64,000 nucleotides of DNA from Limnanthes douglasii subsp. nivea (Eukaryota; Streptophyta; Magnoliopsida; Brassicales; Limnanthaceae): contig JAUPFV010000002.1 in assembly GCA_036936605.1 (NCBI GenBank), positions 341,312,654 to 341,376,653 on the forward strand, read 5' to 3'. The translations under genes were made by a program, and so were the position numbers. Shown piece after piece: positions 2,296-49,214 of this stretch; the stretch's first letter is position 1, and the number at the start of each line of letters is the position of its first letter. Under the pieces are notes generated by a model, which worked only from the letters and a program-made list of their open reading frames with translations, did not search any database and had not been told where the DNA came from.

Positions 2296-3483
2296 TTTTT
2301 ATGGACATCATGGATAAAACAAGCATATTAATTAAATTGAGCAAGATTAGATTTACTAAAAGTATTTTTTTCTATGATTGTATATTTGGAAGAGGAGAGA
2401 ATGCGAGACTTATTATGTTATGGAAAATAACACCCTTGCAATCTTCTTCTTTTTTGAATTTGGATTGTAAAGCATTTAGCCTGGTTTCTTAATGCCTCGC
2501 CAAATAATATTTCTCTTGTTGATTTTCCTTGACACTAAGGGGTTCGCTGATTCTGAGACGAATATTTTGCAAACATAGGATTGATATAGATTCCTTGAGT
2601 CTGAGTAACTTCTAGATTTCTAGTTTTTTCATCAGATTTTTGAGGAAGATGGGGTAATTGCGATGCAGAACTTCAACCCTTCGGCTTGTACTCTTCATGA
2701 TTCGATATGAATTGCTATAAGTTTTGAAATCTAATGTCGGATTCGTCATTTCTTATTGGATGTGTTCTCTTATGATTAGTTCTTCAAGATTTTGATTATA
2801 AATCATTTTAGTGATAACTTGGTGACTAAACGGTATCGAGAAAAAGATAAAGGGATAAGATATTAAGATTCAGTTTTCAGTGCAAGACGAGAGAGGGAGA
2901 AGGTCAAAATCAGAGATTTTGACCTTCTTGACATTTTATTCAAATAGTGTATCATCTATATCCTTTTTTAATACAAAATATTAGTTTTTTCTATTTTTAA
3001 TTAAAGTATAATTAGTGTTATTTGTTTTAAGCTAAAAAAATTAAATCCAAATATCACAAAAGCGAACACTACATTTCAATTTATTCTCAACTTCACTATT
3101 TTTATGATGAATATATTGTTCATCTTTTATGCAGGATTGTGTTTTTACGTGAAACTAAAATTATTTAAATAATATATATTATTTATTTATTTATTTATTT
3201 TTATCTTTTAGAATACTATTATTTTATTTTATTTAGATTTTACCAGCGTATTTTTAATATATTATTATTATTTTTCTATATCTCCTAATACCAAGCAATT
3301 TTTAGATAAAGTGAATCTAATCCAAAACACAATATATTTATTTTTACAAAAAATCTTGGTACCAAGAAATTGTTGTTCATGCGCAATCTATACAATGTTC
3401 ATCTAAACAATATAAGATCGACAAAGGCGGTCGCTCACATTTGCAATACTTGTTAGGCGAATTCAAATTTTAAAATTATTCCG

Positions 3484-4450
3484 AATGACATAGATTGGAC
3501 CAAGACCAAAGTGATATCATCATTGATTTTTTTTTGCACAAAGTTAGTTTGGGTTTGTTACAGACGTTTCCAAATGTCCTAATAATAGATAACAACTACA
3601 AGGTAATAAGGTACGAGATTCCATTATTTGAGGTTGTTGGAACCACTTATACGTGTATGAGTTTCTACATCACTTGCATTTATGGTTGGGGATAAAGTTG
3701 ACAACTATAAGTATGATTAAAATATTTGTAATCGTTGATGGTAACTAACTTTATTGAGGAACAATCCCTTATTTTTACAAATAAATCCTAAGTGTTAGTG
3801 AATGATCTCAAACAAGTGTTCTTTAATCTAATACAAATGTTATATTTATGACACATTAACATGAACATCCTTGTGAAATCAAAGATACTCGTGAATGATA
3901 CAAAAAATATCCGGTGATTTTTAAGTTGGTCGAATGTGATGATGTTTTCGGATACAAAACTCTTGTACAATAACATTCGGTTTGAAATACTTCATGACTT
4001 TAAATATTATATAAAATAAATCGAATACATAAAAATGTTTGTTTAGTTCATTCCAATGATAAGTTTCTCACATGGAAAACTAACAAGTTTATCCATTCTG
4101 GTAACCAGACCACTAATTGCGTGGAGAGTGCTCATACCACGAGGAAGCGTTTTATTGGTACGATCAAAGGTAACTTTGAGTCGTTTTAGGGTAAAGTGCA
4201 TTATTTTCTCAAAATGAAACATAGAACAATTGGAGCATCATTTGTAAAGAGTGGACGTGTAGCCCGATATAAATTTATACGCATGGCATAAGCTAATATC
4301 AAAGGTAACATCTCACATGCTTCTTTATATTTTTTTAGAGAAAGTTGAATATGCCCAAAATATTGAAGTTGTGAATATTAACTGAAATTATACTATACAA
4401 ATTGCGCATGGTACGTCATGTTCGCACGACATTTATGAATTCTAAAGAAA
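3484..4450 (+). pseudogene. MULE/FAR1-type transposase remnant, copy 2
   Basis: This is the unit-2 counterpart of the first transposase remnant. The reading from 3495 holds the first-Asp region (LQTFPNVLIIDNNYKVIRYE), with the usual D-x-T-Y-K changed to D-N-N-Y-K. Downstream, around 3740-4330, the second-Asp and third regions can be followed only by hopping frames. Frameshifts and stops are more frequent than in copy 1. The two copies share the same order of pieces and the same flanks, so they arose by duplication of an already moving or already dead transposase and not by two insertions. No function remains. Confidence 0.7.
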
Positions 4451-4650
4451 AACATAGCGATACCTTTAAACTCTTTCAGCGGTTATTGGAGGAGGTTAGA
4501 TATAGTTTTTTGTACTAATCTAATGACGATATGGCTATTCAAATAAAAAGATATAAATTTGTTCCCATTATGAGGGATACGAGAGATGAAATAAGCATAG
4601 ATCATGTATACAAGAAATGGGTTGTCATAGTCCATCTGAATAAATTTTCT

Positions 4651-6640
4651 TTTTTAAGTTTATTTATAAACATAAAAAACATGGTTGTCTAGTTGTGTAA
4701 TATATATTGTATGTTGTAGTATCGTCTATTAAACGAGTTACATCTTATTACGAACACGTACTAGATTTGGAGAAAGTGAATTTATATTCCCTAGGTAAAC
4801 TTTTCAAAAATCTATCATTCATTTTACGGAGAGGAAGTAGAACTTCGCATTCAAATTGTACAGAGAAAAATGAGTTCCAACACAAACAACTGGTCATATA
4901 TATCCTCTCGATATACTGTACTTATAACTCATCTGATGCATTGACTATCAAGTGGAACAACTAATTCTAGCTCAAAGAGTACGGTATTTTCTTAAGTAAT
5001 GTTGCTTGATATCTTCTATAGCCCTCTTATAACTATGGTTAATGACGTCAAATCTATGGGCTTTACAGAATATCGATCAATTTTGTTTTCCTTGAACGAA
5101 TAATAAGTTGGCTTAAAGTTAATTAGGGATGCATTTTAAGATGAGCTTATGGGTTTTGATGATATATACATGCATATATTAGTAGTATGGATAGGTTAAT
5201 AAATATCATAGAAAGTATAAAGGAATGTAATGATACTGTTACGATATAGAATTGGATGGTAAACGAGAGACGAGAATCGTGACCGTATCAAATTTTAACT
5301 ACATGATCCATTTTGTAGGAAATTTGGGTCGATGATGTTAGTTTTACTTTTCCCATTCACATTTTTAAACCTTAGTCTTTTCACGCCGTTTTTCATCCTG
5401 AGCTCATGATTTCTCGTCTTGAGTGGCCTTCATTTTTTTTATTTATCCTGACCTATCATTCTTATTTATTTGATGAAAATAATAAGTTAGTTAAATGATA
5501 GGTAAAACAATGATATCAAAGTTTTAACATATGTATAAATTACGAATGTAAAATAGCATAGTTATAATATCTATCGGTATAGCCTATTTGTACCGCCAAT
5601 GTTGTACCACCAGTACTGAAGAGCATGAATGAATCTAGAATCATAATTATAGATGTAAATTAAAATGATTATAACCTTAGATAAAATCCCTTATACTACA
5701 AATTATTACCATATCGTTCTAAACCTACATTTGATTCATTATCCTTAATTACAATATCCACCTATTTAAATTCTAGCAAACAATATATTGTAAAAATTAA
5801 ATCTACACATTAAATCATTAAAGAGATTTTTTTACTCTTTTTATTTACTTATTTCTGAAGATGATTCCTAAGAAGAAAATAAAATAATATGAATAGTTAT
5901 CAATTAAATCAGTTTATGGATAAAGAAGAATAAGAGTATTCGAGATTGGGAGATTATAATATATTTGTGGGAGAGGTTAGTCTTTAAAAGAGAGGATTTT
6001 AGATTAAAAAATAGGAAAAAATGGTTAATATGTACCAAAGTTAAAAATTGGAGAACTATAAAAAATAGATAAATAGAATTTCCATGGCCATGAATTATTA
6101 GGTAGAAATATAATGATTGTAGTTTAGATCTTATTTATATAAAAGTTTTGAATAAAAACACATTAAAATATTAGTTTATATGTTGGATTTACAACAAATA
6201 ACATATGTTATATAGTTTGAATCAGTGTTCTTATTTCACAACATAATGATAGTTTGTTTGTGTGCTAGTCATTGTTTAATTTTTATGGCCAGAGTTGTAA
6301 GTGAGGAGTTAGCTGAAAACGAAAGAAGAGGTGGTGATTTGAAACGGAGAAAAAATGATGTTTGTAGACAAAGTTATATAAACGTGAGAAAATAGAAAAA
6401 AAAAGTAAATGCTAATTCGAAAGAAAAATAATTCATTCATAATGAAATTGTTGGTTGTATTTATATGTAGTATACTCGACCTCGAGTTTTTATAACAATC
6501 GAGTTGTAATTATATGAGTATTTTTTATATTATAGTTGATCATTCTCGAAATATTCGGAATCGAATCTGATTTAATAACGTTCAAAGAGACTGAAAAGGG
6601 GAAAACTACAGAGAGAAGATAGTGAGAGAAAGTAATATTA
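4651..6640. other. AT-rich stretch without recognisable genes
   Basis: This stretch is dominated by A/T runs and has no reading frame with recognisable protein similarity. The frame at 4707-4964 (85 codons) has no motif I know. I see no LTRs, terminal inverted repeats or RNA genes. Confidence 0.6.
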
Positions 6641-35212: not shown

Positions 35213-35570
35213 ACAAAGTTTCTCTTTACCCTTTCCCTAGAGAAGTTATAAGGGAACATATAAGTGTTTTGCCTGCAGTTTCTCCAACTGTGGTTATGAA
35301 TTCGTCAGTCCACTCAGAAGGAAACCCACCAACTTTAAACGACAAAATTCATACTATTTCTGTAGGAGCATTTGAAGTATATAACACACTCCCTATTTTA
35401 CATTTGGTTTTTCTTTCTCAGATGGAGACCAACATTAGTTTCGCGTCCCCTACTTTGTCAATGGTTTTAGGAGTACCTATTAGACTCATGTTTGGAAAAA
35501 TTATGATAAAAATTACGAATGGAGTTCGAAAATCTCTAAAGATATTTTGACAAATATCTTTCACTTGTAC

Positions 35571-35571
<1 letters not shown>

Positions 35572-35610
<39 letters not shown>
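35572..35610. repeat. TA microsatellite
   Basis: About 19 TA repeats. At the homologous place, copy 2 (46476-46490) and copy 3 (54753-54761) have only about 4-7 repeats, so it expanded in copy 1. Confidence 0.95.
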
Positions 35611-35613
<3 letters not shown>

Positions 35614-35734
35614 CAGTGTGCTCAGATTCCCAAATTAATCGATGGTCCTATATGTGTCTTTTTTCGAAAAGGTGACGATACAAGATCAACATTTCCAGCT
35701 CTGATTATTACGATTTCTGGATTTTGTAAACATG

Positions 35735-37440
35735 GTTCTATCACATTCATCTTGGATGAAAAAGGTAAAGAAGGCAAAGATAATTACATAGGTCAAATCC
35801 TTGAATTTTTCAAGACAACAAAATAAGATTATTTTAGAGTTCAACGGTTCTTCAAAGCGAAAGATACTGCAATCCAATTTCAAGAAAACCGTCAGCATGA
35901 GAAGCGTATATTTTACTATGATGCGATGAATGACAATGTATTAGATTCCATTGTCTTAAAACTCAAGATTATACAGCGAGAGCCTAATGATAATCTCAAG
36001 TTAAGACATTACGACTATTATTCTGATATGAAGTGTTTGGTGGACTATTCTACTTTCCACACACTTGGAAATTCTATTCGTGTTTCATCCTTATCTGTTG
36101 AGATGAAGAAAAATAGTACGGATATGAATACGCCACTAAAAGATCCAAACGATTCCTACAAACAAGAGCTAGCTCTATTGGATTTATATTGCGGTTGTGG
36201 TGGAATGTCAACTGGTTTGTACCTTAGTGCCAAAACCTTGGGCATTGACTTGAAAAAAAATTGGGTTGTGGAGATCAACAATACGTCTAAGAACTTGAAG
36301 TTGAATCTGTTGGGAAAAAGTCCCTAATATAAAACAGGAACAACAGATAGCCTTAACAGACAGACTAGTATATATATAGAGATAAACAAGAAGTGCCGAA
36401 ATGGTAACTTCATTTCAAATATCAATACAAGGGTCTGTTTTCTTATATAGAAAATACAGATAAATTGTTCGGTCTTATCTAAATAACTACCCTAATAACT
36501 GATATTAGACACTTCATAAACTAGACAATACGTATTCAAACTAACTAGTTTAGATTACTTCCAACATTCTCCCCTGTAATCTAAACTGCAACCAACTTCA
36601 CGGTGGTCTTCTCTGTCTTCTGCCATCAGATATGCAGGTTCCTCATCTTTTACTACCATGTCTTCTACCATCATAAGTGCAGCTTACTCATCTCTGCCAT
36701 CAGAAGTGCAGGTTCCTCATCTTGTACTGTCATGTCTTGTGCCATCAGAACTGCAGGTTCCTCATCTCTGCCATCAGAAGTGCAGGTTCCTCCTCGATTT
36801 GTACTTTTCATCCACTCCTCTCTAGTGAATAAAAGCTTCCCCTCTTAGTCTTCTCGTTTACTCCATTCGTCCTCCGTTGTTATTGCCTAGGCTCTGATAC
36901 CAATGTTGGGAAAAAAGTCCCTACGATAAAACAGGAACAACAGATAGCCTTAACAGACAGACTAGTATATTTATAGAGATAAACAAGAAGTGCGGAAATG
37001 GTAACTTCATTTCAAATATCAATACAAGGGTCTGTTTTCTTATATAGAAAATACAGATAAACTGTCCGATCTTATCTAAATAACTACTCTAATAACTTAT
37101 ATGAGACACGTTATAAACTAGACAATACATATTCAAACCAACTAGTTTAGATTACTTCCACCAGAATCATCTAGAAACACAACTTAGAAATGAAGCTACT
37201 AAAGATTTCTTTGACCTATTAACGGAGTGGGGCAAGCTATATAAAAATACATAGTAAAATATACCACGGGAAATGTGAAATTAAGTACACGTATCCCTGA
37301 AACATGCAGAAATTTGCGTTCAAATAGTGAAGGCAGAAATTCATATAAAGAATTCGACGTTGCGAGCCTTGTCGACATATGCTGTAGTGGTCATAATAAT
37401 ATTCGCAAGCGTAGATTTAATTTTAAGGTTGATCTAACTA
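35735..37440 (+). pseudogene. Captured chromomethylase fragment in E copy 1
   Basis: The reading resembles plant chromomethylases (CMT3 class). A BAH-domain segment (GQILEFFKTTK, FFKAKDT, then DNVLDSIVLKLKIIQ) runs from about 35740 to 36050, with a stop at 35824. Next come YYSDMKCLVDYSTFHTLGNS and motif I of cytosine-5 methyltransferases, LDLYCGCGGMSTG (about 36178-36216). After the TRIM insertion the reading resumes with residues before and into the chromodomain (about 37169-37440: FDVASLVDIC, RRRFNFKVDL). In chromomethylases the chromodomain lies between motif I and the catalytic Pro-Cys motif, so the order is right. The catalytic PCQ motif is absent, so no methyltransferase can be made. 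No introns interrupt it, though plant CMT genes are intron-rich. Confidence 0.8.
36308..37163 (-). mobile_element. TRIM-1: short LTR element inside the captured chromomethylase
   Basis: 856 bp with LTRs 36308-36566 and 36904-37163, starting TGTTGGGAAAAA, and a perfect target duplication GAATC (36303-36307 and 37164-37168). On the minus strand the primer site TTGGTATCAGAGCC is next to the right LTR and a purine tract ACAGGGGAGAA next to the left one, so the element reads leftward. The 337-bp interior holds repeats of a CATCAGAAGTGCAGGTTCCT type. On the minus strand it encodes a gag scrap (REEWMKSTN, DEEPA) like the gag of copia G, so TRIM-1 is a deletion derivative of a related copia. Copies 2 and 3 of E lack it. 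Confidence 0.92.
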
Positions 37441-37524
37441 GTTAGATTTTAATGGATGATATTTTTGCTCCATATGACTACAGTGGGTGAATTCGAGGGC
37501 GAATTCTTTCCAACCGGGAGAGGA

Positions 37525-37812
37525 TGATGTAGCTCACTATTTGAATTCAATTATTTAAATATTTTAGTTTTAGATTTATTTTATTTTAAGGATTTATTTA
37601 AGATAACAAATTAAATCTAATTATATTCTGATTTAATAGGATATTATTTTACTATGTTTATTTTTGTTTCCTTGTTTTGTATTAAGGATTTGGGCGATTC
37701 CTATTTAAGGCGCCTCAAACCCTACTTTTATTTTGAGACTTTTTTAATAGAATTTTGATAATGAAAATTAGGGTTCCCCCTATATTGACTTCTCTGCGTT
37801 TACTTTGTATCA
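37525..37812 (+). repeat. E copy 1, 3' LTR
   Basis: Starts TGATGTAGCTCAC and ends TTTGTATCA. Matches the 5' LTR of copy 2 (43232-43538), which is longer by a 19-bp internal duplication. Preceded by a purine tract and followed by AGATG. Confidence 0.93.
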
Positions 37813-39634
37813 AGATGTGATCTTCAATGAAATAATGATGTACAAGGACAGACATAAAACCGAAGCAAATGACTCAAAGCGTATGAATCAATATTTGCAG
37901 ACATTGATGGAGTCCCAGATAATCAAGAAATAGAGCCGACCTAGGCAGTTCCTGTTTTGCGAAGATCTTCCCGACCTCATGTTCCCAACAGAAGATATTT
38001 GAACAATCTGTTACTTACCGATGGAGGGAAACCTGAATGCTATGATCAAGCTTTCCAGACCAGTGATGTTAACAAGTGGGAGCTTGCTATGAAAAATAAG
38101 ACGAAGTCTTTAATCTCATATGATACATGATAACTAGTTGAGTTACTAATGGGTAAGAAGGCACTTCATAACAAATGGGTGTATCGGGTGAAAGATGAGC
38201 ATGATGGCTCTAAGAGATACAAAGTTTGACTAGTTGTTAAAGTGTTCCAACAAAAGGAAGGAATTGATTACACTGATATTTTGCTCTAGTTGTGAAGCTC
38301 AATACTATTAGATCAGTGTTGAGTATTTTTCCCATTGAGACCTTTATCTTGAACAGTTAGATGTGAAGACTGCATTTCTTCACGGGGACTTGGATGAGGA
38401 AATATACATGTATCAACCAGAAGGTTTCTTAAAAGAAGGGAAAGAAAACATGGTATGGAGACTCAAGAAAAGTTTGTATGGTCTAAAACAAGCTCCAAAC
38501 AGTGGTACAAGAAATTTGACGGCTTTATGTAAGAAAATGTAATGCAGACCACTTTTATTATTTTAATATATGTAAGTCTTGTTATATCATTTTGTTACTC
38601 TATGTTGATGATATGTTAGTAGCAGGTTCATATATGGATGATATTAGAAAATTGAAGCAAAAATTGTCAAAAAAATTTGATATGAAGGGCTTGGGTCCGG
38701 CGAAGAAGATTCTTGGAATGCAAATCACAAGAGATAAGCATATATAAGTTTTGCAGTTATCTCAGTCAGAGTACATCGATCGCATTTTGAAGAGATTAAA
38801 CATGTGTGATGCCAAACCAGTTAGTATACCATTTGCAGGTCACTTTCGTTTATCCAAGGATCAATCCCCTAAGATGGATGAAGAAAAAAACTCCATGGAA
38901 TAGGTTCATTACGCCTCAGCTATTGGAAGTTTGATGTATGCAATGGTCTGTACAAGACCAGACATTAGTCATGCAGTGGGAGTTGTGAGTAGGTTTATGT
39001 CAAATCCAGGGAAAATTCATTGGGAAGCTGTGAAATGGATTTTGAGGTGCCTACTAGGTACCACAGAAAAGTGTTTGTACTTTGATAAGGGTGAGTTAAA
39101 GGTACAAGGCTACATAGATGCAGATTATAGAGGTGAAGTTGATCACCGGAAAAGCACTATCGGTTAAATATTTATTTTTGGAACTGCAGTTGTTAGTTGG
39201 ATGTCAAAGTTACAGAAAATTATCACTCTATCAACTATAGAGGCTGAGTATGTAGCAGTGACCGAAGCCAGTAAAGAGATGGTATGGCTTCAAGGTTTGT
39301 TAACCCAGTTTGGATTCAAACATAAGAACAACGTTCTGCATAGTGATAGTCAAAGTGTAATTCCATTGGCGAAGAATTCAACATTTCATTCAAGAACCAA
39401 GCACATCAGTATTCGTTATCATTTCATTAGATCTTTATTGGAAGATGAGGTGCTAATACTGGAAAAGATCCAAGGAAGCAAGAATCCAGCTGATATGTTG
39501 ACAAAGACAGTAGCCATTGAAAAACTGAAGTTGTGTTCAGCTTCACTTGGTCTGCAAGAGTAATAAGACCAGGAAGATCTGCAGCATAGATGAAGGTGCA
39601 AAGACATGTGGAAACCAGTCTTCAAGTGGGAGAT
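37813..39634 (+). pseudogene. Copia F, second half (linker, RT, RNase H)
   Basis: The sequence begins in mid-gene at the codons for DVIFNE, which normally follow the integrase-RT linker, because E inserted there. Reverse transcriptase is broken: [21 protein letters not shown] (about 38355-38416), SLYGLKQAP, and the catalytic YVDD at 38601-38612. RNase H is well preserved from 38931: YAMVCTRPDISHAVGVVSRF, ADYRGEVDHRKSTIG, then after a stop TIEAEYVAVTEASKEMVWLQ and HSDSQSVIPLAKNS. It ends at TAA 39561-39563. A purine tract AAGTGGGAGAT abuts the LTR at 39635. The family is Tnt1-like copia. The matching first half is at 41107-43231, to the right, not to the left as expected. Confidence 0.9.
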
Positions 39635-40113
39635 TGTTATTTTGACATAATAGTCCATCCTTATTCAATATACATTTCAATGGATAGAAGAGATGCTAGA
39701 TGAAAAGACAGTGAAGATGAGGCAAGTTCTAAACATATTAAAGAGAGCTATGGTGAATTAAAAAAGACAGTGTAATTTTAGTGGGTCATAAATTACACAT
39801 TAAGGACTGTAAATGTTTTCCCCTTTTAAGTGTGACAGTCTCTACAAAACTAAGTGCTAGGTTTTTTGTGTATGCATCAAAAACGACAGAATCACTGTGT
39901 CTTTATAATAAAATCGATCTGCAGCAGGTCCGGAGATGTAGGCATAATTTGCTGAAATCCGTTAACAATTGTGTGTTTGCTTTCACTTTTGTTTTGTGTT
40001 TCTTTTCTTATTGATTTGATTGCATGAAAATTGTGTATTTTCCCAAAACCCATCTTTACCTCAAGAAAATTTAGAAGTGATTTGGTAGGAAATTAGTGTA
40101 TTTCCCTTACGAC
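39635..40113 (+). repeat. Copia F LTR-1
   Basis: Starts TGTTATTTTGACATAATAG directly after a polypurine tract and ends at ...CCCTTACGAC before a primer site TGGTATCAGA. About 97% like LTR-2. It is both the 3' LTR of the unit to its left and the 5' LTR of the deleted unit to its right. Confidence 0.9.
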
Positions 40114-40628
40114 TGGTATCAGATCTAGGCTGGTAGCGATCCAAAGGAGGTCACATTTGAGTGGGAGCAATGCCTATAGACGAAGGAAAGATGAGACTCG
40201 AAAAAATCAATGGTGTAGATTTTGGGTTCCGGAAGAGGCTGAGTATGTAGCAGTGACCGAAGCCAGTAAAAAGATGATATGGCTTCAAGGTTTGTTAACC
40301 GAGTTTGGATTCAAACATAAGAACAACGTTCTGCATAGTGATAGTCAAAGTGTAATTCAATTGGCGAAGAATTCAATATTTCATTCAAGAACCAAGCACA
40401 TCAGTCTTCGTTATCATTTCATTAGATCTTTATTGGAAGATGAGGTGCTAATACTGGAAAAGACCAAGGAAGCAAGACTTCAGCTGATATGTTGACAAAG
40501 ACAGTAGCCATTGAAAAACTGAAGTTGTGTTCAGCTTCACTTGGTCTGCAAGAGTAATAAGACCAGAAAGATCTGCAATATAGATCAAGGTGCAAAGACA
40601 TGTGGAAACCAGTCTTCAAGTGGGAGAT
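40114..40628 (+). mobile_element. Copia F deletion unit: gag start fused to RNase H end
   Basis: Between the two F LTRs lies an internal region of only about 515 bp: primer site, leader, the first 20 or so gag codons, then at about 40222 a direct switch to the C-terminal RNase H (AEYVAVTEASKKMIWLQGLL) and the 3' untranslated region with the polypurine tract. Everything in between, about 4 kb plus any E insertion, is deleted. The join is at a short GAAGAGGCTGAG-like overlap. Confidence 0.9.
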
Positions 40629-41106
40629 TGTTATTTTGGCATAATAGTCCAGCCTTATTCAATATACATTTCAATGAATATAAGAGATCCTAGATGAAAA
40701 GACAGTGACGATGAGGCAAGTTCTAAACATATTAAAGAGAGCTGGAGTGAATTAAAAAAGACAGTGTAATTTTAGTGGGTCATAAATTACACATTAAGGA
40801 TTGTAAATGTTTTCTCTTTTTAAGTGTGACAGTCTCTACAAAACTAAGTGCTAGGGTTTTTGTGTATGCATCAAAAACGGCAGAATCGTTGTGTCTTTAT
40901 AATAAAATCGATCTGCAGCAGGTCCGGAGATGTAGGCATAATTTGTTGAACTCCGTTAACAATTGTGTGTTTGATTTCACTTTTTTTTTTGTTTCTTTTC
41001 TTTTTTATTTGATTGCATGAAAAATGTGTATTTTCCCAAAACCCCTCTTTACCTCAAGAAAATTTAGAAGTGATTTGCTAGGAAATTAGTGTATTTCCCT
41101 TACGAC
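40629..41106 (+). repeat. Copia F LTR-2
   Basis: Second LTR of the array, 478 bp, followed by primer site TGGTATCAGAGC at 41107. It serves as the 5' LTR of the first-half unit to the right. Confidence 0.9.
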
Positions 41107-43231
41107 TGGTATCAGAGCTAGGCTGGTAGCGATCCAAAGGAGGTCACATTTGAGTGGGAGCAATGGCTATAGACGAAAGAAAGATGAGACTCGAAAAAAC
41201 CGATGGTGTAGATTTTAGGTTTTGGAAGATGCAGATTGAAGATTATCTATACCAGAAAAAGCTTTATCAAACCCTTTCAGAAAAGAAACCAGAGAGTATG
41301 AAAGATGAAGAATGGGCCCTTCTTGACAGACAAGCTCTTGTAGTCATCCGATTGACGCTAATCCACAATGTTACTTTTAACATCGTAAGGGAAACAAACA
41401 CGACGGGTCTTAAGAAGGCTCTCTCCCGTATGTATGAGAAGCCATCAACGTTTAACAAAGTTTACTTGATAAGGCATTTATTCAATTTGCGAATGACAGA
41501 AGGCGCGTCAGTAGCTCAATAACTCAATGAACTCAATACAATCACAACCCAGTTCAGTTCAGTTGAAATATGTTTTGATGAAGAAATACGAGCACTGATA
41601 CTATTGTCTTCACTACTAAATAGTTGGAATGCTACTGTCACAGCGGTGAGTAGCTCGTCAAGAAGCAATAAATTGAAATTTAATGATGTTCGTGACCTAG
41701 TTCTCAGTGAAGAGTTTTGAAGGAGAGAATCAGGTGAGTCATCAATCGCCTCAGTCTTACATACAGAGTCGAGAGGAAGAAATTCAACCAGAGGATATGG
41801 ACGCGGTAAATCGAACTACCGAGGAAAATCAAGAGACTGGAGATCTAAGTCTAGGAATCCTAAATATTCCCAAGGGTTGAGAAACATCTAGTGTTGGAAT
41901 TGTGGGAAGATGAGGCACTATGCAAGAGAGAACCAAAGGACCAGGAGAAGAAAATAGAGGAAAATATCACTTCAGAAGGAGATGATGCGTTAATATGCTC
42001 CTTAGAAAGCCGAGAAAATTCTTGGGTATTAGATTTTAGAGCATCGTTTCACGCGACTTCGAAGAAAGAATTCTTCGAGAGGTATGTCCCTGGTAACCTT
42101 GGAAAATTATATTTTGGTGATTATCAACCTTGTGATATAATTGGTAAAGGTACTGTGAAGATTAAGTTGAATGGGTCTGTATGAGAACTGAAAGATGTCA
42201 CACATATCCCCGATCTAAGAAAGAACTTAATCTCACTAGGGTAGTTGGCTAGCAAAGGCTACAATACGATCTTCCATGGTAAAAATTGGAAGATTTCAAA
42301 GGGAGCAATGACGGGTTCTCGCGAGAAGAAGAGTGGAACTCTTTACAAGACAACAGATATGAGCTATTCAATTGGAATAGCAGCAGGAAACGAAAATCCA
42401 AATGTTTGGAACCAGAGGCTTGGTCACATGAGTGTGAAAATTATGTACTCGAAGGGGAAGCTTCCAAGTCATAATTCAGTCGATATAGACATGTGCGAAT
42501 ATTGCATACTTGGAAAACAGAAAAGGGTCAGTTTTCAGACGAGTGACAGAACTCCAAAGAAACAAAGGCTGGAGCTCGTTCACTCTGACGTTTGGGGGCC
42601 AACAATTGTTTCATCTATAGGAGGGAAACAATATTTCATGACCTTTATCGACGATCATTCTCGAAAGGTATGGGTTTATTTTCTAAAGCATAAATCTGAA
42701 GTGTTTGATTTTTTTAGGAGATGGAAATATATGGTTGAGAATGAGACAGGTTTGAAGATTAAAAAGCTGAGAACCGATAATGGTGGTGAACATGAGGACA
42801 CCAAATTCAAGAAGTTTTGCTATGAGCATGGGATCAGGATGGAGAGAACCGTGCAGGGTACGCCTCAACACAATAGTATTTCCAAACGTATGAACAGAAC
42901 ATTGACAGAAAGAGCTAGAAGCATTCGTTTATAGTCTGGTTTACCGCAGCAGTTCTGGGCAGAAGCGATCAACACATTGGCTTACCTGGTTAACCGAGGC
43001 CCATCGGTTCCCTTAGAACATAGAATACTCGAGGAGGTATAGAGTGGTAAGGATAAAAAATTATCACATCTAAGAGTTTTTGGTTGTATTGTATATGTTC
43101 ATATAAGTGATCAAGGCAGGAACAAGCTTGATCCGAAATCGAAGAAATGTTTCCTGATCGGCTATGGCGAAGATGAGTTTAGTTATCGTGTTTGGGATGA
43201 CGAAAACAGAAGATGATACGAAGCAGAGATG
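41107..43231 (+). pseudogene. Copia F, first half (primer site, gag, protease, integrase)
   Basis: The tRNA-Met primer site at 41107 is followed by the gag ATG at 41163 (MAIDERKMRLEK), with FWKMQIEDYLYQKKLYQTLS and NKVYLIRHLFNLRMTEGASV; the frame stops at 41521 and continues. A knuckle (CWNCGKMRHYARE, changed from the consensus) is near 41895. The protease active site near 42030 reads WVLDFRASFHAT, so the catalytic D-S/T-G is damaged. Integrase: LELVHSDVWGP, FIDDHSRKVWVYFLKHKSEVF, RTDNGGEHEDTKFKKFC, and the E region (PQHNSISKRMNRTL) with changes. It ends at 43231 with the target duplication AGATG, where E is inserted. Confidence 0.9.
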
Positions 43232-43538
43232 TGATGTAGCTCACTATTTAAATTCAATTATTTAAATATTTTACTTTTAGATTTATTTTATTTTAAGGAT
43301 TTATTTTATTTTAAGGATTTATTTAAGATAACAAATTAAATCTGATTATATTCGGATTTAATGGGATATTATTTTATTATGTTTTTTTTTGTTTCCTTAT
43401 TTTGTATTAAGGATTTGGGCGATTTTTATTTAAGGCGCCTCAAACCCTACTTTTATTTTTAGACTTTTTTTAATAGAATTTTGATAAAGAAAATTAGGGT
43501 TCCCCCTATATTGGCTTCTCTACGTTTACTCTGTATCA
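43232..43538 (+). repeat. E copy 2, 5' LTR
   Basis: 307 bp from TGATGTAGCTCAC to CTCTGTATCA. Compared with the copy 1 LTR it has a 19-bp tandem duplication (GGATTTATTTTATTTTAA). The left target duplication AGATG is at 43227-43231. Confidence 0.93.
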
Positions 43539-43541
43539 TAT

Positions 43542-43558
43542 TGGTATCAGACAGAGGC
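43542..43558 (+). other. E primer-binding site
   Basis: TGGTATCAGACAGAGGC, three bases after the LTR. The first ten bases match the initiator tRNA-Met primer site used by many plant LTR elements. Confidence 0.8.
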
Positions 43559-43569
43559 AGTCTTGCGAG

Positions 43570-44193
43570 ATGGTGCGAGGAAGACCCAAAGGTCGCAGCA
43601 GCGTTGCTGTGGAAGGAGATGCGAGTGATTTTGGAGATTGCGAGAATGCTGACCTGCGCCGTCAGGTCGAGTATCTTGGTCGTAAGATGGCTGAACTTAC
43701 TGACAGGAAACCCGATGTGGAGGCTGAAGGTCCCGATAACCCTTTTGGAGAAAGGCCAGAACGTAAAACTTATCCGGACTGCCGCTGGGAGCTTGGATTT
43801 AAGGTCAACATTCCTGACTTTGATAGTGGCCTTCGGGCGGAGGAGTTTGTTGATTGGTTATCCCAGGTTGAGGAGGTGCTGAAAGGTGAAATTTCTGATG
43901 CAACTTGGCCGAAATTGGGAGATCCGATTTATGATGTATACGGTGATGAGGATGAAGACGATCCAATTTATGATACATACGGCGCTGAGGATGAAGATGA
44001 TTGGGTAACACCGACAATAGTTTCTCATTATTTCACTAAGTTAAATAATGATAATCCTTCGTCTGTATCAATAAAATCTAATGGAAATTTGGATGATGGT
44101 TTTAATAATGCCGAGATTTGTGCTAAACTTTTAGTGGATAAAAGAAAAAAAATAAAAAGGGAAAAAACAATAAAATTGCTTCTAATGAAATAG
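43570..44193 (+). CDS. E truncated gag-like ORF with internal deletion
   Basis: A 207-codon frame begins MVRGRPKGRSS. Its first about 107 residues match the N terminus of gypsy gag of the chromovirus kind: a basic start, a coiled segment, then FGERPERKTY, RWELGFKVNIPDF and EFVDWLSQVEEVL. Where the capsid core should continue, the sequence jumps to a stretch with a tandemly repeated acidic unit (DPIYDVYGDEDED and DPIYDTYGAEDED, about 43920-44003). That stretch resembles the linker that precedes reverse transcriptase in such elements, so gag core, knuckle and protease seem deleted. The last 60 residues (Asn/Lys-rich) are unassigned. Whether this frame is translated is unknown. It is the only intact E-derived frame. 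Confidence 0.7.
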   Translation: MVRGRPKGRSSVAVEGDASDFGDCENADLRRQVEYLGRKMAELTDRKPDVEAEGPDNPFGERPERKTYPDCRWELGFKVNIPDFDSGLRAEEFVDWLSQVEEVLKGEISDATWPKLGDPIYDVYGDEDEDDPIYDTYGAEDEDDWVTPTIVSHYFTKLNNDNPSSVSIKSNGNLDDGFNNAEICAKLLVDKRKKIKREKTIKLLLMK

Positions 44194-44199
44194 TCAAAT

Positions 44200-44425
44200 T
44201 TGGGGTCTTCTCCTATCCATTAGCGGCATTCAAAATACGATTACCATGCGATGGAAGCGACAGAGCCCTAGACACCGTCACAGTCGATTGGAGATGTGAT
44301 TTTGCTGCTCTCTGTCAATGGACGATTCATAATTTCCCTAAGATTAAAGGTAGAGCAGTATGGAACAAGTATCGATGTCGGAGGTGACAATGGTCGTCTC
44401 CCTGTTTACCCTAAGGAATACTCAC
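44200..44425 (+). pseudogene. Captured MATH/TRAF-like domain fragment
   Basis: Read in one frame the stretch gives DTVTVDWRCDFAALCQWTIH followed by NFPKIKGRAVWNKY, then shifts by one base to a reading with VGGDNGRLPVYPKEYSQAL. This resembles the plant TRAF-like/MATH proteins whose domain opens with a C-x-W-x-V-x-N-F-x-x-x-K-x-R-A-x-W-S-K-Y-F-E-V-G-G pattern. It is a partial first half of the domain with one frameshift. In its host gene it would mediate protein interaction. It is on the plus strand, in line with gag. Confidence 0.7.
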
Positions 44426-44655
44426 AAGCTTTGTCTGACGCACAGATGGTGTTCGGTGAAAATTCTGAGAGAAATGTCTGGAAAGTGGGATATGCAAAAA
44501 AGGTGTTCGAAAAAATTCCTTAGAGAGAAACGGGGTTATGGTACGATGGTGTCTGGGTTTGTTAGGAATAATCTATTCGAGGATGCTATTAGGGTTTTTG
44601 GTGAGTTGATTCAGAGCGGTGATGTTGATCGCCTTGATGTAATTAAAGGTACAAC
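44426..44655 (+). pseudogene. Captured pentatricopeptide-repeat fragment
   Basis: One PPR and its borders can be read: YAKKVFEKIP, a stop, then YGTMVSGFVRNNLFEDAIRV and FGELIQSGDVDRLD. The A-x-x-V-F-x-x-[IM]-P ... W-N-T-M-[IV]-S-G pattern is that of PLS-type organellar RNA-editing PPR proteins. The downstream half is in the same frame as the next captured fragment, forming a fused reading from 44360 to 44914. Confidence 0.75.
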
Positions 44656-44832
44656 ACAGTCTGTAGGGGCTGGAGAAATTCTGGTGAATCTTTGGAACAT
44701 CACAAAAGTTGTTTCTTTGATTGGACAGGCTCTGGAGATGTCACCCAAAGAAAGAGAAAAATGCCATAAGCATAACTTTTCTCAAGTCACAACCTATATT
44801 GATGAAGAATGGGCTGAATTGTTTGTAAGTGA
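44656..44832 (+). pseudogene. Captured trehalose-6-phosphate synthase fragment
   Basis: The reading GEILVNLWNITKVVSLIGQA, LEMSPKEREK, CHKHNFSQVTTY and EEWAELFVSE matches the end of the glucosyltransferase domain of class I plant trehalose-6-phosphate synthases (consensus ILVNPWNITEVA, ALNMPxEEREKRHxHNFxHV, AQEWAExFVSEL). The invariant Pro of VNPWN is replaced by Leu. Only about 58 codons were taken. It is in frame with the PPR piece before it. Confidence 0.8.
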
Positions 44833-45404
44833 AGGTCATATAGAGTACATGAGAGTGTTGACTGATGTCCTATGCAAACTTGAAGAGATGCAAAAAATTG
44901 ATGACGAAAGATAACAGTTAGTCGTGGAGATAGTGGGCATGTCTTCTGAAGATTTAAAGGATGGGCGTTAATCACAGAGAAAACAACCAAAGAGGAGCCT
45001 GTTGAGCCAGATAAGATACAGATGACAGGTAAACTGTGCTCGCGATAAAACGAACGCAAAGTCTGTGTGATCGATGATATCTATCCAGTGCAGGAACACC
45101 GTTATCGGCTAATGCATAATGGATGCGGTCATAACTGGTTTGCATCAAGAGACGTAGTCGACCTATCTGGACATGATAAGCCCACTACTGCTACAACTGC
45201 GCAAACACAATCACCAGTCATTGGTATATCTGACTCTCGCCGGAAGAAGGATATTAAAGTTACAGATTTGGAAGGAAGCTCACTAGATGAAGTTAAAGTT
45301 GAACTCTAGAAACACAGATTCAACAACTGTGGGACAGAGCCTTAAAACAATCAACCTGGAGATATAATTTTGTCAGCAGATTCTAAACCTGAGTCAGTTG
45401 CTGA
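44833..45404 (+). pseudogene. Unidentified captured sequence between TPS and LRR fragments
   Basis: Two readings look like former coding sequence. 44833-44970 gives HIEYMRVLTDVLCKLEEMQK followed by a short Glu/Asp-rich stretch to a stop. 45040-45310 gives VIDDIYPVQEHRYRLMHNGC and a later KKDIKVTDLEGSSLDEVKVE. I do not recognise either. Codon-like composition and sense orientation suggest additional captured exons. Stops at 44912, 44970 and 45307 break them. Confidence 0.45.
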
Positions 45405-45409
45405 CTTAC

Positions 45410-45770
45410 TGTAGTTATAGAACGTATGAACAAGAAACTGTATGAACAAGAAACTGTATGAACAAGAAACTTGGAATAAAAAGAAAATGTTACTACTTGA
45501 TATTGAACTGAAATAACAAAGTACAAACAACTTAAATACTTTCTAAGAGAAAGAAGCATAACCCACTCCTATTTTAGTGCCACTCTCTTACTCCACTAAC
45601 ACACTCCTACAAAATCAACAACTCCCCACTACTAAGTCTTACTCCACTAACACACTCCTAAAATATCACCAACTCCCCACTACTAAGTCTTATAATAGAT
45701 GGAAACAATTAAATAAAACAAATAAAACAATTAAAACTTTGTTTTAGAATATGTTTAGATTAACCCAATA
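45410..45770 (-). repeat. Solo LTR of copia G in E copy 2
   Basis: 361 bp, TGTAGTTATAG to CCAATA on the plus strand (TG...CA in related copies), flanked by a perfect target duplication CTTAC (45405-45409 and 45771-45775). It matches the 5' LTR of copia G at 53707-54048, which is followed by the same CTTAC and the same E sequence. An insertion shared by copies 2 and 3 has thus been reduced here to one LTR. Confidence 0.92.
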
Positions 45771-45775
45771 CTTAC

Positions 45776-46095
45776 AAAGGGTTGGAAGGGATGACCACAC
45801 TGTTGTAAAGCGTAGGATGACCGTGATCCATGAGTTTAATAATTCAGAATATGTCTTATTTTTACGAAACAACATTATTTCTGACTCAATTCCATCAGAT
45901 GTTCGAGAATACCAGCTTTTGAAACAACTAAACTTAAGCTGCAACACTTTCAATGGACCAGTTCCAAACTCGTTACTTAATTTACGTGGACTAACTCACT
46001 TGTTTCTTAGAAGTAATAAATTGAGTGCAGCTTCAAGCATTAGTATTTTACCGTCTGGACTGGACTGCCTTCGAAGGAATTTTCCTTGCAATCGA
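45776..46095 (+). pseudogene. Captured LRR receptor-kinase fragment (E copy 2)
   Basis: After an unassigned lead-in (RDDHTVVKRRMTVIHEF), the reading gives LRNNIISDSIPSDVREYQLL, KQLNLSCNTFNGPVPNSLL and NLRGLTHLFLRSNKLS, i.e. three plant-type leucine-rich repeats (L-x-x-L-x-L-S-x-N-x-x-x-G-x-[IV]-P). Then comes LPSGLDCLRRNFPCNRG, the Cys-containing border after the repeats in LRR VIII-2 (malectin-type) receptor kinases. The usual last repeats between these two blocks are missing. Such genes have many introns and none is seen here. Confidence 0.78.
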
Positions 46096-46613
46096 GGCGA
46101 TACATGCTTTCTCAGACTACATGCAGATTTTTTCTTCCCTAGAGAAGTTATAAGGAAACATATAAGTGTTTTGCATGCCGTTTCTCCAACTGTGGTTATG
46201 AATTCATCAGTCCACTCAGAAGGAAACCCACCAAGTTTAAACGATAAAATTCAGACTATTTCTGCAGGAGCAGTTGAAGTATATAACACACTCCCTATTT
46301 TACATTTGGTTTTTCTTTCTCAGATGGAAACTAGCATTAGTTTCTCGTCCCCTACTTTGTCAATGGTTTCAGGAGTACCTATTACACTCATGTTCGCAAA
46401 AATTATGATAAAAATTACGAATGGAGTTTGAAAAGCTCTAAAGCTATTTCGAAAAATATCTTTCACTTGTACGTATGTATATATATATATGATGATCAGC
46501 GTGCTCAGATTCACAAATTACTCGATGGTCCTATATGTGTCTTTTTGCGAAAAGGTGACGATACAAGATCAATATTTCGAGCTCTGATTATTACAGTTTC
46601 CGGATTTTGTAAG
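46096..46613 (+). pseudogene. Unidentified captured sequence (E copy 2)
   Basis: A continuous reading with PREVIRKHISVLHAVSPTVV, SEGNPPSLNDKIQTISAG, VEVYNTLPILHLVFLSQM and PTLSMVSGVPITLMFAKIMI. The composition is that of a helical, mildly hydrophobic protein. It is present in all three E copies (35240-35560, 46137-46430, 54414-54740), followed by a shorter reading with HKLLDGPICVF and a DDTRS motif. I do not recognise the source, and it may be two genes. Copy 2 has a TGA at 46429. Confidence 0.5.
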
Positions 46614-48145
46614 TGTTTGAGATATAAGGCATAAGCCCATTAGCTCATATAGTTTATCTATAAATAATAGATTTAGACTCTATGTAATACACTTTCTAAA
46701 TAATACAAAACCCTAGACGTTCTCTTTACTTTCTTTTGTTCACTATTTAACATGGTATCAGAGCCAGGTTGATCCGATCGGAGAACCGTCGCGATCCTCC
46801 TATTTTGTAGATATACCAGGTATTCAATTTCGTAGTAGTATTGGATTTCGGTTTTGAATTGGATTTATTTGGAAATCTTGGATCTGTTCGAAAATTTTGG
46901 ATTATGTATTGATATTATTTTGGATCTGCTTTTGCATGATTTCCATTTTTTATCTTATTTTACGATTGGATTTGTGTTGGAAATTTCGATCTGCTTTTCG
47001 TCATAATAGATATAGTTTTCAGTTTTCGGATCTGCTGTGTGCAGCTCCAATAAAACGGTCTGATCGAAAGGCAAACGATGTCCGTTTTTACTGAATTTTA
47101 GAGAGCATGTTCGGGACATCCAACCTTTCACTATGACCGGTCAGATTATGATTCAGTGCTACGGTTTGGGAGAAATCACAACTGGAACAGTGCAGCAGTC
47201 TTGTTGGTAAAACCGTGAATTCAAATTGATTTTGATTTTGATTTTAGAAATTTAAAATTGGCAATTAGAAATTTAAAATTGAATTTGGTTTGGTTTTTGG
47301 ATATTAGTTTGGTATTTGGATTTGAGATTGGATTTGTTTGGGTATTTGGCATTGAGATTCCGTTTGGATTTCGTTTTGGTGTTTAGATGTCGTTCTTCGT
47401 TTATAGATTTCGTTTATCTTCGTTTGAAGTTGTTTGGATTCGTTTTGGCTTTGTTTGGATTCGTTTGGTTTGGTTTGGCTTGGTTTGGATTCGTTTGGAT
47501 TTGTTTAGCTTTGTTTTGGATTTGTTTGGCTTTGTTTGGATTCGTTTGGTTTCGTTTGGTTTCGTTTGGATTAGTTTGGCTTCGTTTGGATTTGTTTTGA
47601 CTTCGTTTGGACTTGTTTGGATTTTTTTTTGGATTCTTTTGGATTTTTTTGGCTTTGTTCTGGCTTTGTTCTCGCTTTGTTTGGCTTGGTTCGGCTTCGT
47701 TTGGATTAGTTTGGCTTCGTTTGGACTTGTTTGGTTTTGTTTTGGATTTGTTTGGCTTGGCTTGACTTCGTTTAGATTCGTTTGGTGTTTGGATTAGTTT
47801 TGATTTTTGGAGTTTGGAGATTGGAGATTGACGATTGGAGTTTGAAGATTGGAGCTTGAAGATTGGAGTTTGATTTTTTGGTTTTTGACGTTTCGATTTT
47901 GGTTTTGATGTTTTGTTTTGATTTGTTGATGTTTCAATTTTATTTCTTTTATTTTGTGTAACAAACTCCCAATGCAAGAATAAGCATTGCGAGTTTGAAA
48001 GAGGGTGTTAGAGATATAGGCCTAAGCCCATTAGCCCATATAGTTTATCTATAAATAATAGATTTAGACTCTATGTAATATACACTATCTAAATAATACA
48101 AAACCCTAGCCGCTCTCTTTTCTCTCTTTTGTTCACTATTTAACA
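46614..48145 (+). mobile_element. TRIM-2: short LTR element with a minisatellite interior
   Basis: LTRs 46614-46752 (139 bp) and 48006-48145 (140 bp) begin TGTT(T/A)GAGATATA and end TTTAACA. The primer site TGGTATCAGAGCCAGG starts at 46753, right after the left LTR. A purine tract GAAAGAGGG precedes the right LTR. The target duplication is GTAAG (46609-46613) versus GTAGG (48146-48150), one mismatch; copies 1 and 3 of E are uninterrupted here. The 1.25-kb interior has no retroelement protein and contains a G/T-rich minisatellite (47310-47830). Confidence 0.9.
47310..47830 (+). repeat. TTTGGATTCGTTTGGCTTCG-type minisatellite in TRIM-2
   Basis: Dozens of imperfect copies of a 10-11 base unit (TTTGGATTCG, TTTGGCTTCG and similar). 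Because the repeat lacks stops it opens frames on both strands (Phe/Trp/Leu-rich on plus, Lys/Asn/Gln-rich on minus, 187 codons), which I regard as non-coding. Confidence 0.9.
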
Positions 48146-48995
48146 GTAGGCATGGTTCTATCACATTCATCTTAGATAAAAAAGGTAAAGAAGGCAAAGA
48201 TAATTACATAGGTCAAATCCTTGAATTTTTCAAGACAGCAAAATAAGATTCTTTTAGAGTCCAACGATTCTTCAAAGCGAGAGATACTGTAATCCAATTT
48301 CAAGAAAAACCTCAGGATGAGAAGCGTATATTTTATTGTGATGCGATGAATGACAATGTATTAGATTCCATTGTATCAAAACTTAAGACTATACAACGCG
48401 AGCCTAATGTTAACCTCAAGTTAAGACATTACGACTATTATTCTGATATGAAGTGTTCGGTAGACTATTCTACTTTCCACACACTTGGAAATTCTATTCG
48501 TGTTTCATCCTTATCTGTTGAGATGAAGAAAAATAGTACGGATATGAATACGCCACTAAAATATCCAAACGATTCCTACAAACAAGAGCTAGCTCTATTG
48601 CATTTATATTGCGGTTGTGGTGGAATGTTAACTGGTTTGTGCCTTACTGCCAAAACCTTGAGCATTGACTTGATAACAAATTGGGTTGTGGAGATCAACA
48701 ATACGTCTAAGAACTTGAAGTTGAATCATCCAGAATCACAACTTAGAAATGAAGCTACTGAAGATTTCTTTGACCTATTAACGGAGTGTGACAAGCTATA
48801 TAAAAAATACATAGTAAGAGATACCAAAAGAAATGTGAAATTGAGTACACGTATCCCTGAAACATGCAGAGATTTGCGTTCAAATAGTGAAGGCAGCAAT
48901 TCATATAAAGAATTCGGCGTTGCGAGCCTTGTCGACATATGTTATAGTGGTCATAATAAAATTGGTAAGCGTAGATTTAATTTTAAGGTTGATCT
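48146..48995 (+). pseudogene. Captured chromomethylase fragment in E copy 2
   Basis: This is the least interrupted of the three. BAH-domain residues (GQILEFFKTAK, a stop at 48244, then FFKARDT) lead into an open frame from 48346 (MNDNVLDSIVSKLKTIQ), YYSDMKCSVDYSTFHTLGNS, methyltransferase motif I LYCGCGGMLTGLC (about 48604-48642; Ser of the usual GGMSTG changed to Leu), NWVVEINNTSKNLKLNHPES, RNEATEDFFDLLTECDKLYK, and the chromodomain start VASLVDICYSG, GKRRFNFKV at about 48985. In CMT proteins the same blocks occur in the same order. The PCQ catalytic motif and the target-recognition part were not captured. No introns. Confidence 0.82.
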
Positions 48996-49084
48996 AACTT
49001 GTCAGGTTTTAATGGACGATATTTTTGCTCCCTATGACGACAATGGGCGAATTCGAGTGCGAATTATTTCCAACCTGGAGAGGA
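48996..49084 (+). other. E 3' end: remnant of gypsy pol terminus and polypurine tract
   Basis: The reading ends DDNGRIRVRIISNLERMM with TGA inside the first LTR bases. In plant gypsy elements of the chromovirus type the pol C terminus often ends with a R-(G/V)-R-I-x-S-N-x-E-R-M-x pattern directly before the polypurine tract. Here GGAGAGGA (49077-49084) is that tract. This shows that E is built on a gypsy backbone at both ends. Confidence 0.7.
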
Positions 49085-49214
49085 TGATGTAGCTCACTAT
49101 TTAATTTCAATTATTTAAATATTTTAGTTTTAGATTTGTTTTATTTTAAGGATTTATTTAAGATAACAAATTAAATCTGATTATATTCTGATTTAATATG
49201 ATATTATTTTATAG
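49085..49214 (+). repeat. E copy 2, 3' LTR (truncated)
   Basis: Matches the first about 130 bp of the other E LTRs up to GATATTATTTTA, then switches to the inverted RNase H of copia G with a few bases of overlap. Confidence 0.88.

Follow-up and report, generated by a model that had tools for sequence, protein, structure and literature searches.

The maize long terminal repeat (LTR) retroelement Bs1 holds pieces of three host genes (PMC13317346), described as exon-only (PMC4717578), and the soybean TRIM GmaRetroS15 is a small non-autonomous LTR element with three host gene fragments, again exons only, and 5-bp target site duplications (TSDs; PMC4717578). Wider surveys counted 425 maize LTR elements with gene fragments, from at least 189 captures (PMC2774510), and 672 and 1,343 genes sitting inside LTR elements in rice and sorghum (PMC3726574), and transduced sequences usually lie in the gag-pol sense (PMC7264820). 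Pack-MULEs, which contain exons and introns (PMC4717578), and Helitrons also amass many host gene fragments, but capture them at the DNA level, unlike the element described here. In a 64,000-nucleotide stretch of the 1.78 Gb genome of Limnanthes douglasii subsp. nivea (hereafter the window; C112:341312654-341376653 of assembly G000), we analysed an LTR element, named E, which together with copies dispersed through the genome forms a non-autonomous LTR family of gypsy type. Its cargo, as identified by sequence matches, comes from at least eight host genes: PPR, trehalose-6-phosphate synthase (TPS), KIP1/NET1, TFIIS_M, DUF6469, an LRR receptor kinase, a DNA ligase and a chromomethylase (CMT). 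Repeated template switching to spliced host mRNAs within this lineage very probably explains E.

E resembles Bs1 as an LTR element with exon-only pieces of several host genes, and its exon-only, sense-oriented host fragments make it a Bs1-like transducing element. It departs from the three-gene Bs1, as far as the latter is described in the accounts covered, by at least eight genes, by the variety of cargo sets that a single genome contains, by a mapped breakpoint and by seven junctions with checked frames. A 2001 paper on Bs1 reportedly dealt, judging by its title, with a hybrid open reading frame from multiple transductions. E also differs from the gene-carrying TRIMs, which measure 1,172-1,449 bp with three fragments, and for which the passages concerned mention neither a cargo lineage nor frame-keeping (PMC4717578). 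The maize survey, in its relevant passages and under its own conditions, found none among its LTR elements that combined fragments of two or more standard nuclear genes (PMC2774510), against at least eight in E, and the rice and sorghum study counts annotated genes inside elements, multi-gene fusion and phase going unmentioned in its relevant passages (PMC3726574). In the literature covered, chiefly titles and passages of open-access papers, no LTR element appeared whose cargo exceeds three host genes. The Bs1-like kind is known already; the cargo number and the frame-keeping are unusual.

Exon-only host gene pieces in element E

The cargo of E is arranged as follows, in window coordinates.

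43885..44477, +, block A, a 5' block common to the lineage (from its sharing among copies and sibling elements)
44478..44623, +, PPR fragment (Pfam PPR), a mosaic with a 5' half of element type and a 3' half of host-chimera type
44624..44833, +, TPS fragment (PF00982; L036, L041), shortened by an internal deletion that keeps phase at ~44648
44823..44930, +, KIP1-like fragment (91% identical to L037)
44927..45251, +, TFIIS_M-domain fragment, four exons fused (L038, L039)
45252..45404, +, DUF6469 fragment (PF20073), resuming past a solo LTR at 45776
45860..46098, +, LRR receptor kinase fragment joining five exons (L059)
46164..46613, +, fragment of an ATP-dependent DNA ligase joining five exons (L058; PF01068, 4.9e-11), its last ~25 nt resuming at 48151 past a TRIM-like insert
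48184..48989, +, chromomethylase fragment, BAH to the start of the methyltransferase, six exons fused (L035)

A Pfam scan of the plus-strand cargo up to an expect value of 1, run in one frame over 43570-44190 and outside the nested inserts, placed TPS over the cut-off (PF00982, 3.6e-9), DUF6469 just under it (PF20073, 2.5e-5) and PPR (5.7e-5), BAH (2.1e-4) and LRR (2.7e-4) under it, with no reverse transcriptase, integrase or protease domain. The PPR match passes the cut-off in copy L045, and in PDB the CMT piece matches a DNA cytosine methyltransferase from plants (4fsx, residues 66-350, 1e-37), which we take to be the chromomethylase ZMET2, the cargo piece itself being presumably a chromomethylase. 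Two pieces were named from genomic loci with matches over the cut-off: KIP1 from L037 (PF07765, 6.8e-16) and the ligase from L058, to which E is 81-86% identical. Identities to other loci reach 86% for TPS (L036), 76-92% for TFIIS_M (L038/L039; PF07500 at its locus 4.6e-4, under the cut-off), 86% over 50 bp for DUF6469 (L040), 83-95% for the LRR piece (L059) and 77-86% per exon for CMT (L035); these best-matching loci may be parents or close paralogues. We further assume that the TPS fragment is of class I, that the KIP1-like gene is NET1, that the DUF6469 gene is SEN1-like and that the receptor kinase belongs to subfamily VIII-2. A protein database search with the CMT piece returned 240 candidates, none of which passed, and a PDB search with PPR-TPS gave no match.

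The PPR, TPS, LRR receptor kinase and chromomethylase pieces proposed by the initial annotation are supported by these Pfam and PDB matches, and its two or more unknown genes now bear the names KIP1/NET1, TFIIS_M, DUF6469 and DNA ligase, raising its "at least five" source genes to at least eight. Its receptor-kinase piece holds up to ~46098, and 46164-46613 belongs to the ligase. The MATH/TRAF-like piece that it also proposed found no match in Pfam or PDB; the middle of block A is MATH-like by eye only, unconfirmed, and its PPR-like end was likewise seen by eye, with Pfam and PDB negative.

Alignment with the matching loci revealed fused exon junctions for four cargo genes whose parents or paralogues contain introns. 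E lacks all 16 of the introns that the alignments span (five of CMT in L035, three of TFIIS_M in L039, four of the LRR kinase in L059 and four of the ligase in L058), two of these absences resting on a weak match because a single LRR exon out of the five aligns over just 17 bp (expect value 0.16). That match counts against the template-switching account, as does the failure of DNA searches, which included none by gene family, to find an intact DUF6469 parent, L040 being a fragment. For CMT, splice sites were read and the spliced frame is open; for the other loci, splice sites were judged by eye from the flanks. All named fragments are sense relative to the element, and antisense Pfam scans of the cargo of E (43890-45404, 45776-46613 and 48145-49089), L046 and L053 gave no hits. 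The intron-free, sense-oriented pieces described initially are thereby supported.

Capture of genomic DNA by a Helitron or Pack-MULE, with LTRs arriving later at the flanks, would fit the number of fragments alone, as maize Helitrons with up to nine are described (PMC6431247), but we give it almost no credence: the introns that such a capture would bring along are gone, the orientation is uniform, and the cargo lies within LTRs, with a primer binding site (PBS), a polypurine tract (PPT) and 5-bp TSDs at four sites. No Helitron or Pack-MULE ends were seen by eye, no dedicated search being made. Absent introns, single orientation and copies with their own LTRs and TSDs uphold the capture at the RNA level by an LTR element that was first proposed.

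A dispersed family and its siblings

The remaining features of E and its copies in the window are listed below.

43227..43231, +, left TSD AGATG, inside a copia element (integrase recognised by eye)
43232..43538, +, 5' LTR of E (TG...CA), Kimura two-parameter (K2P) distance 0.054 to the 3' LTR of copy C1
43542..43551, +, PBS-like TGGTATCAGA (from sequence)
43570..43884, +, gypsy gag leader (from likeness to the start of L049)
45410..45770, -, nested solo LTR, copia-like, TSD CTTAC, absent from dispersed copies spanning the site
46614..48145, +, nested TRIM-like element, ~140-bp LTRs, flanks GTAAG/GTAGG (from sequence)
48990..49084, +, tail with short gypsy pol end (by eye) and PPT (from sequence)
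49085..49212, +, 3' LTR of E, ending after 128 bp (from homology to the LTR start)
35233..37812, +, copy C1, ligase-CMT part with complete 3' LTR (37525-37812) and its own insert at ~36308-37163
37813..37817, +, right AGATG, partner of 43227-43231, directly behind the 3' LTR of C1
54060 (approximate)..55837, +, copy C3, LRR-ligase-CMT part, 3' end truncated, with an LTR of the kind of the solo LTR of E upstream

The PBS, which we assume to be of tRNA-Met type, reads TGGTATCAGAGC in copies L024, L025, L030 and L031, and the PPT-like GGAGAGGA occupies 49077-49084. The two pieces initially set apart from the cargo have exact boundaries, as a solo LTR and a TRIM-like element; C1 and C3 lack the latter, as do those dispersed copies that extend across its site. 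Without the two inserts, E measures ~4.1 kb with a 307-bp LTR. TRIMs have very short LTRs and a small size, and E is too large for one in both respects. The gypsy gag start claimed for its 5' end is corroborated by 89% identity between 43476-43881 and the start of L049, which matches Pfam Retrotrans_gag and, weakly, an aspartyl protease. A short way downstream lies the 3' end of a gypsy-type element (SH3_Tf2-1), which shares the LTR start TGATGTAG. Judged by the leader and this 3' end, E, which lacks reverse transcriptase, derives from a Ty3/gypsy element.

The initial annotation had described LTRs, PBS, PPT and an AGATG duplication. The 5' LTR, PBS-like and PPT-like motifs and the start of the 3' LTR stand, but the 3' LTR is cut at 49212, where a minus-strand element (copia by eye) follows, no AGATG lies to the right of 49212, and the right AGATG was found at 37813-37817. 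When the flanks 43231/37818 are put together, a single frame, KMIRSRDVIFNE, runs through the joint (copia integrase by eye), and therefore the left end of E and the right end of C1 represent one insertion into copia, which would later have been duplicated or permuted. Between them, 37818-43231 comprises the right part of the copia element, a ~995-bp tandem repeat (39239-41229) and the left part, circularly permuted and resembling a tandem array or an integrated circle.

Genome searches with the CMT piece gave 23 match places, 6 being exons of L035 and the other 17 falling into 14 loci including E; a query from block A to DUF6469 gave 61 match places from 40 scored of 821 first-look candidates. 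Besides C1 and C3, copies occur on contigs C112, C223, C334 and C441, and the fetched ones keep the fragments in the order and orientation of E, internal deletions aside, as the initial annotation would have it. L024, L025, L026, L030, L031 and L032 retain two LTRs, and TSDs mark four unrelated sites: AGATG (E/C1), AGATT (L024/L025), GATAC (L032) and CTTTG/CTTTC (L030/L031, 4/5 bases); because flanks are common within each of the pairs L024/L025 and L030/L031, each was counted once. No matching TSD was seen for L026. The two LTRs, PBS, PPT and 5-bp TSD of a non-autonomous LTR retrotransposon are present in this family, the LTRs and TSDs being found in L024/L025, L030/L031 (TSD 4/5), L032 and E with C1 as ends; LTR K2P distances range from 0.05 to 0.10. 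As C3 adjoins an LTR of the element present in E as a solo LTR, E and C3 look like DNA-level duplicates. Another 5'-truncated copy, 47.7 kb upstream of C1 (L034:7147-9699), is probably a segmental duplicate, because it starts at E coordinate 46135, as does C1. The leader of E (43540-43885) is of L046 type and other TPS-carrying copies (L024, L030, L032) have a different one, which suggests further recombination at the 5' end.

Block A is shared with sibling elements bearing other cargo.

L046 and L050: GRDP-MCM-CHASE-PL4; related forms L049, L051 and L055
L047: MYB; L048 is a near copy over the common part
L053 and L052: EXS with or without creatinase_N, both being in L053; L056 partly alike
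L054: amine oxidase and pectinesterase, both under the Pfam cut-off
L057: block A element, no cargo gene assigned

Pfam gave no name to the cargo of L042, L044 and L056 or to the end of L045. A minimal element made of leader, block A, PPR and 3' end is represented by L055:1-1623 (5' LTR partly fetched), with its deletion point a few bases from the PPR-TPS junction position. L046 has a 319-bp direct repeat (94%) on both sides of the element (689-1007 and 4441-4759, element orientation).

Breakpoint, reading frames and assembly of the cargo

The mosaic PPR fragment was compared at 17 informative sites with TPS-less elements (majority of L046, L049, L050 and L055) and with L043, a host chimera. 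All 9 upstream sites agree with the TPS-less elements; of the 9 sites after them, 8 agree with L043 and one with neither. The breakpoint, located within 5 nt, is seen in 8 TPS-carrying copies with few single-copy exceptions (Fisher test for 9:0 vs 0:8, 4e-5, adjacent sites not being independent events), and such sharpness is strong sequence-based evidence of template switching. Microhomology occurs at both junctions examined, TTGTAAGTGAA at TPS-NET1 and AACTC at NET1-TFIIS in L030. Serial insertion of processed pseudogenes into an old LTR element would also leave intronless fragments, but we consider it very improbable and set it aside on orientation, TSDs and mosaic structure: a mosaic PPR piece requires recombination, inspection of the gene-gene junctions, by eye only, showed neither poly(A) tracts nor target duplications, and the microhomology, single orientation and kept frames do not fit it either.

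Host phases on either side of each junction were compared in the 16 copies where measurable, excluding L029, which has just the CMT part and a weak LTR match, the locus at C112:168.63 Mb and block A, and dropping high-scoring segment pairs below 19 bits or 45% identity and pairs outside a spacing of -40 to 170 nt. The DUF6469 query was in part approximate, but on the TFIIS side the DUF6469 frame is given independently by the Pfam match in E. Phase is kept at PPR-TPS in 10/10 copies, at the TPS internal deletion in 10/10, at TPS-NET1 in 12/12, at NET1-TFIIS in 10/12, at TFIIS-DUF6469 in 10/11, at DUF6469-LRR in 8/10 and at ligase-CMT in 8/12. From equal spacing in two lineages, E/C3 and L030/L031, LRR-ligase was probably in phase ancestrally as well. 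Seven gene-gene junctions are accordingly in phase, six by majority of copies and one by inference; since the copies are related, junctions rather than copies are the units of count, and the chance of such phasing is (1/3)^6 = 0.0014 or (1/3)^7 = 0.0005. PPR, TPS and, weakly, TFIIS_M (0.014) match one frame of L045, and among siblings MCM, CHASE and PL4 share one frame of L050, GRDP and MCM one frame of L046, and PPR-GRDP is in phase in L049 and L050. The host pieces were apparently first joined in one reading frame.

Several observations count against this reading. At LRR-ligase, no more than 4 of 10 copies keep phase, namely E, C3, L030 and L031, and phase is lost at NET1-TFIIS in L026 and L032, at TFIIS-DUF6469 in L033, at DUF6469-LRR in E and L032, and at ligase-CMT in L024, L026, L030 and L031. 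Among the siblings, CHASE is out of frame in L046, as are GRDP-MCM in L050 and PPR-GRDP in L046. Later internal deletions also break phase, the one at LRR/ligase in L024/L025 as well as the one at ligase/CMT in L030/L031, and L032, outside the scored rows, behaves likewise; because copies with such deletions still spread, an open frame was not required in each round.

Frames kept over most junctions at assembly would suit a fused frame retained for a useful chimeric protein, or a cargo that regulates its parents via small RNAs. We nevertheless regard such usefulness as improbable, since copy-specific changes in the CMT block of five copies fall evenly over codon positions 1, 2 and 3 (29, 28 and 25), and L024 and L045, translated from the leader, run into stops or shifts. 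Between-copy changes are also about even, and the cargo, decaying since amplification, bears no sign of protein-level constraint.

The junctions need not all have formed inside the element, as the PPR-TPS join also exists outside, which likewise tempers the template-switching account. L043 (6.5 kb read) contains at 2836-4130 an intronless PPR-TPS chimera; beyond PPR and TPS it shows no match to E, and its junction is the one found in the lineage of E. The PPR-like sequence upstream in L043 (by eye) is absent from the element, so this locus is not simply a fragment of E; LINE-like sequence (by eye) follows the chimera. The cargo could accordingly have been pre-assembled outside as chimeric retrogenes and captured in one or a few steps, a scenario that we consider unlikely but deserving of some weight: only the PPR-TPS pair is found outside (no dedicated search was made for others), the other parents or paralogues occupy separate loci, and the block A siblings bear different cargo, so that cargo addition continued inside the lineage.

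Under repeated template switching, the lineage would be mobilised in trans by relatives with gag and pol, and reverse transcription would repeatedly switch from element RNA to spliced host mRNAs, presumably co-packaged, at short microhomologies or, once a host piece is aboard, at longer homology. A switch back before the 3' end would keep the LTRs, PBS and PPT while host exons replace pol. An open frame from gag through the cargo may have acted as a filter, through message stability or the need for a gag fusion, and have been relaxed later. More tentatively, with somewhat less than even confidence, gene accretion may be self-reinforcing, each piece aboard giving homology for copy-choice and captures surviving mainly if they extend the gag frame, so that one 5' chassis yields many multi-gene chimeras. 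The homology-aided copy-choice of this scheme is seen at the PPR-TPS step, the chassis being the leader plus block A.

In the surveys compared, as far as their passages report, plant LTR capture amounts to a single gene per element, with three as the maximum. Here, the common 5' block, the alternative cargo sets, the template-switch point and the kept frames make capture steps readable from siblings in one genome. RNA-level exon shuffling, and translation as its filter, become directly testable by a genome-wide junction-phase count in a single lineage. The dispersed copies, and the siblings with their different gene sets, show how LTR elements can amass and shuffle host exons.

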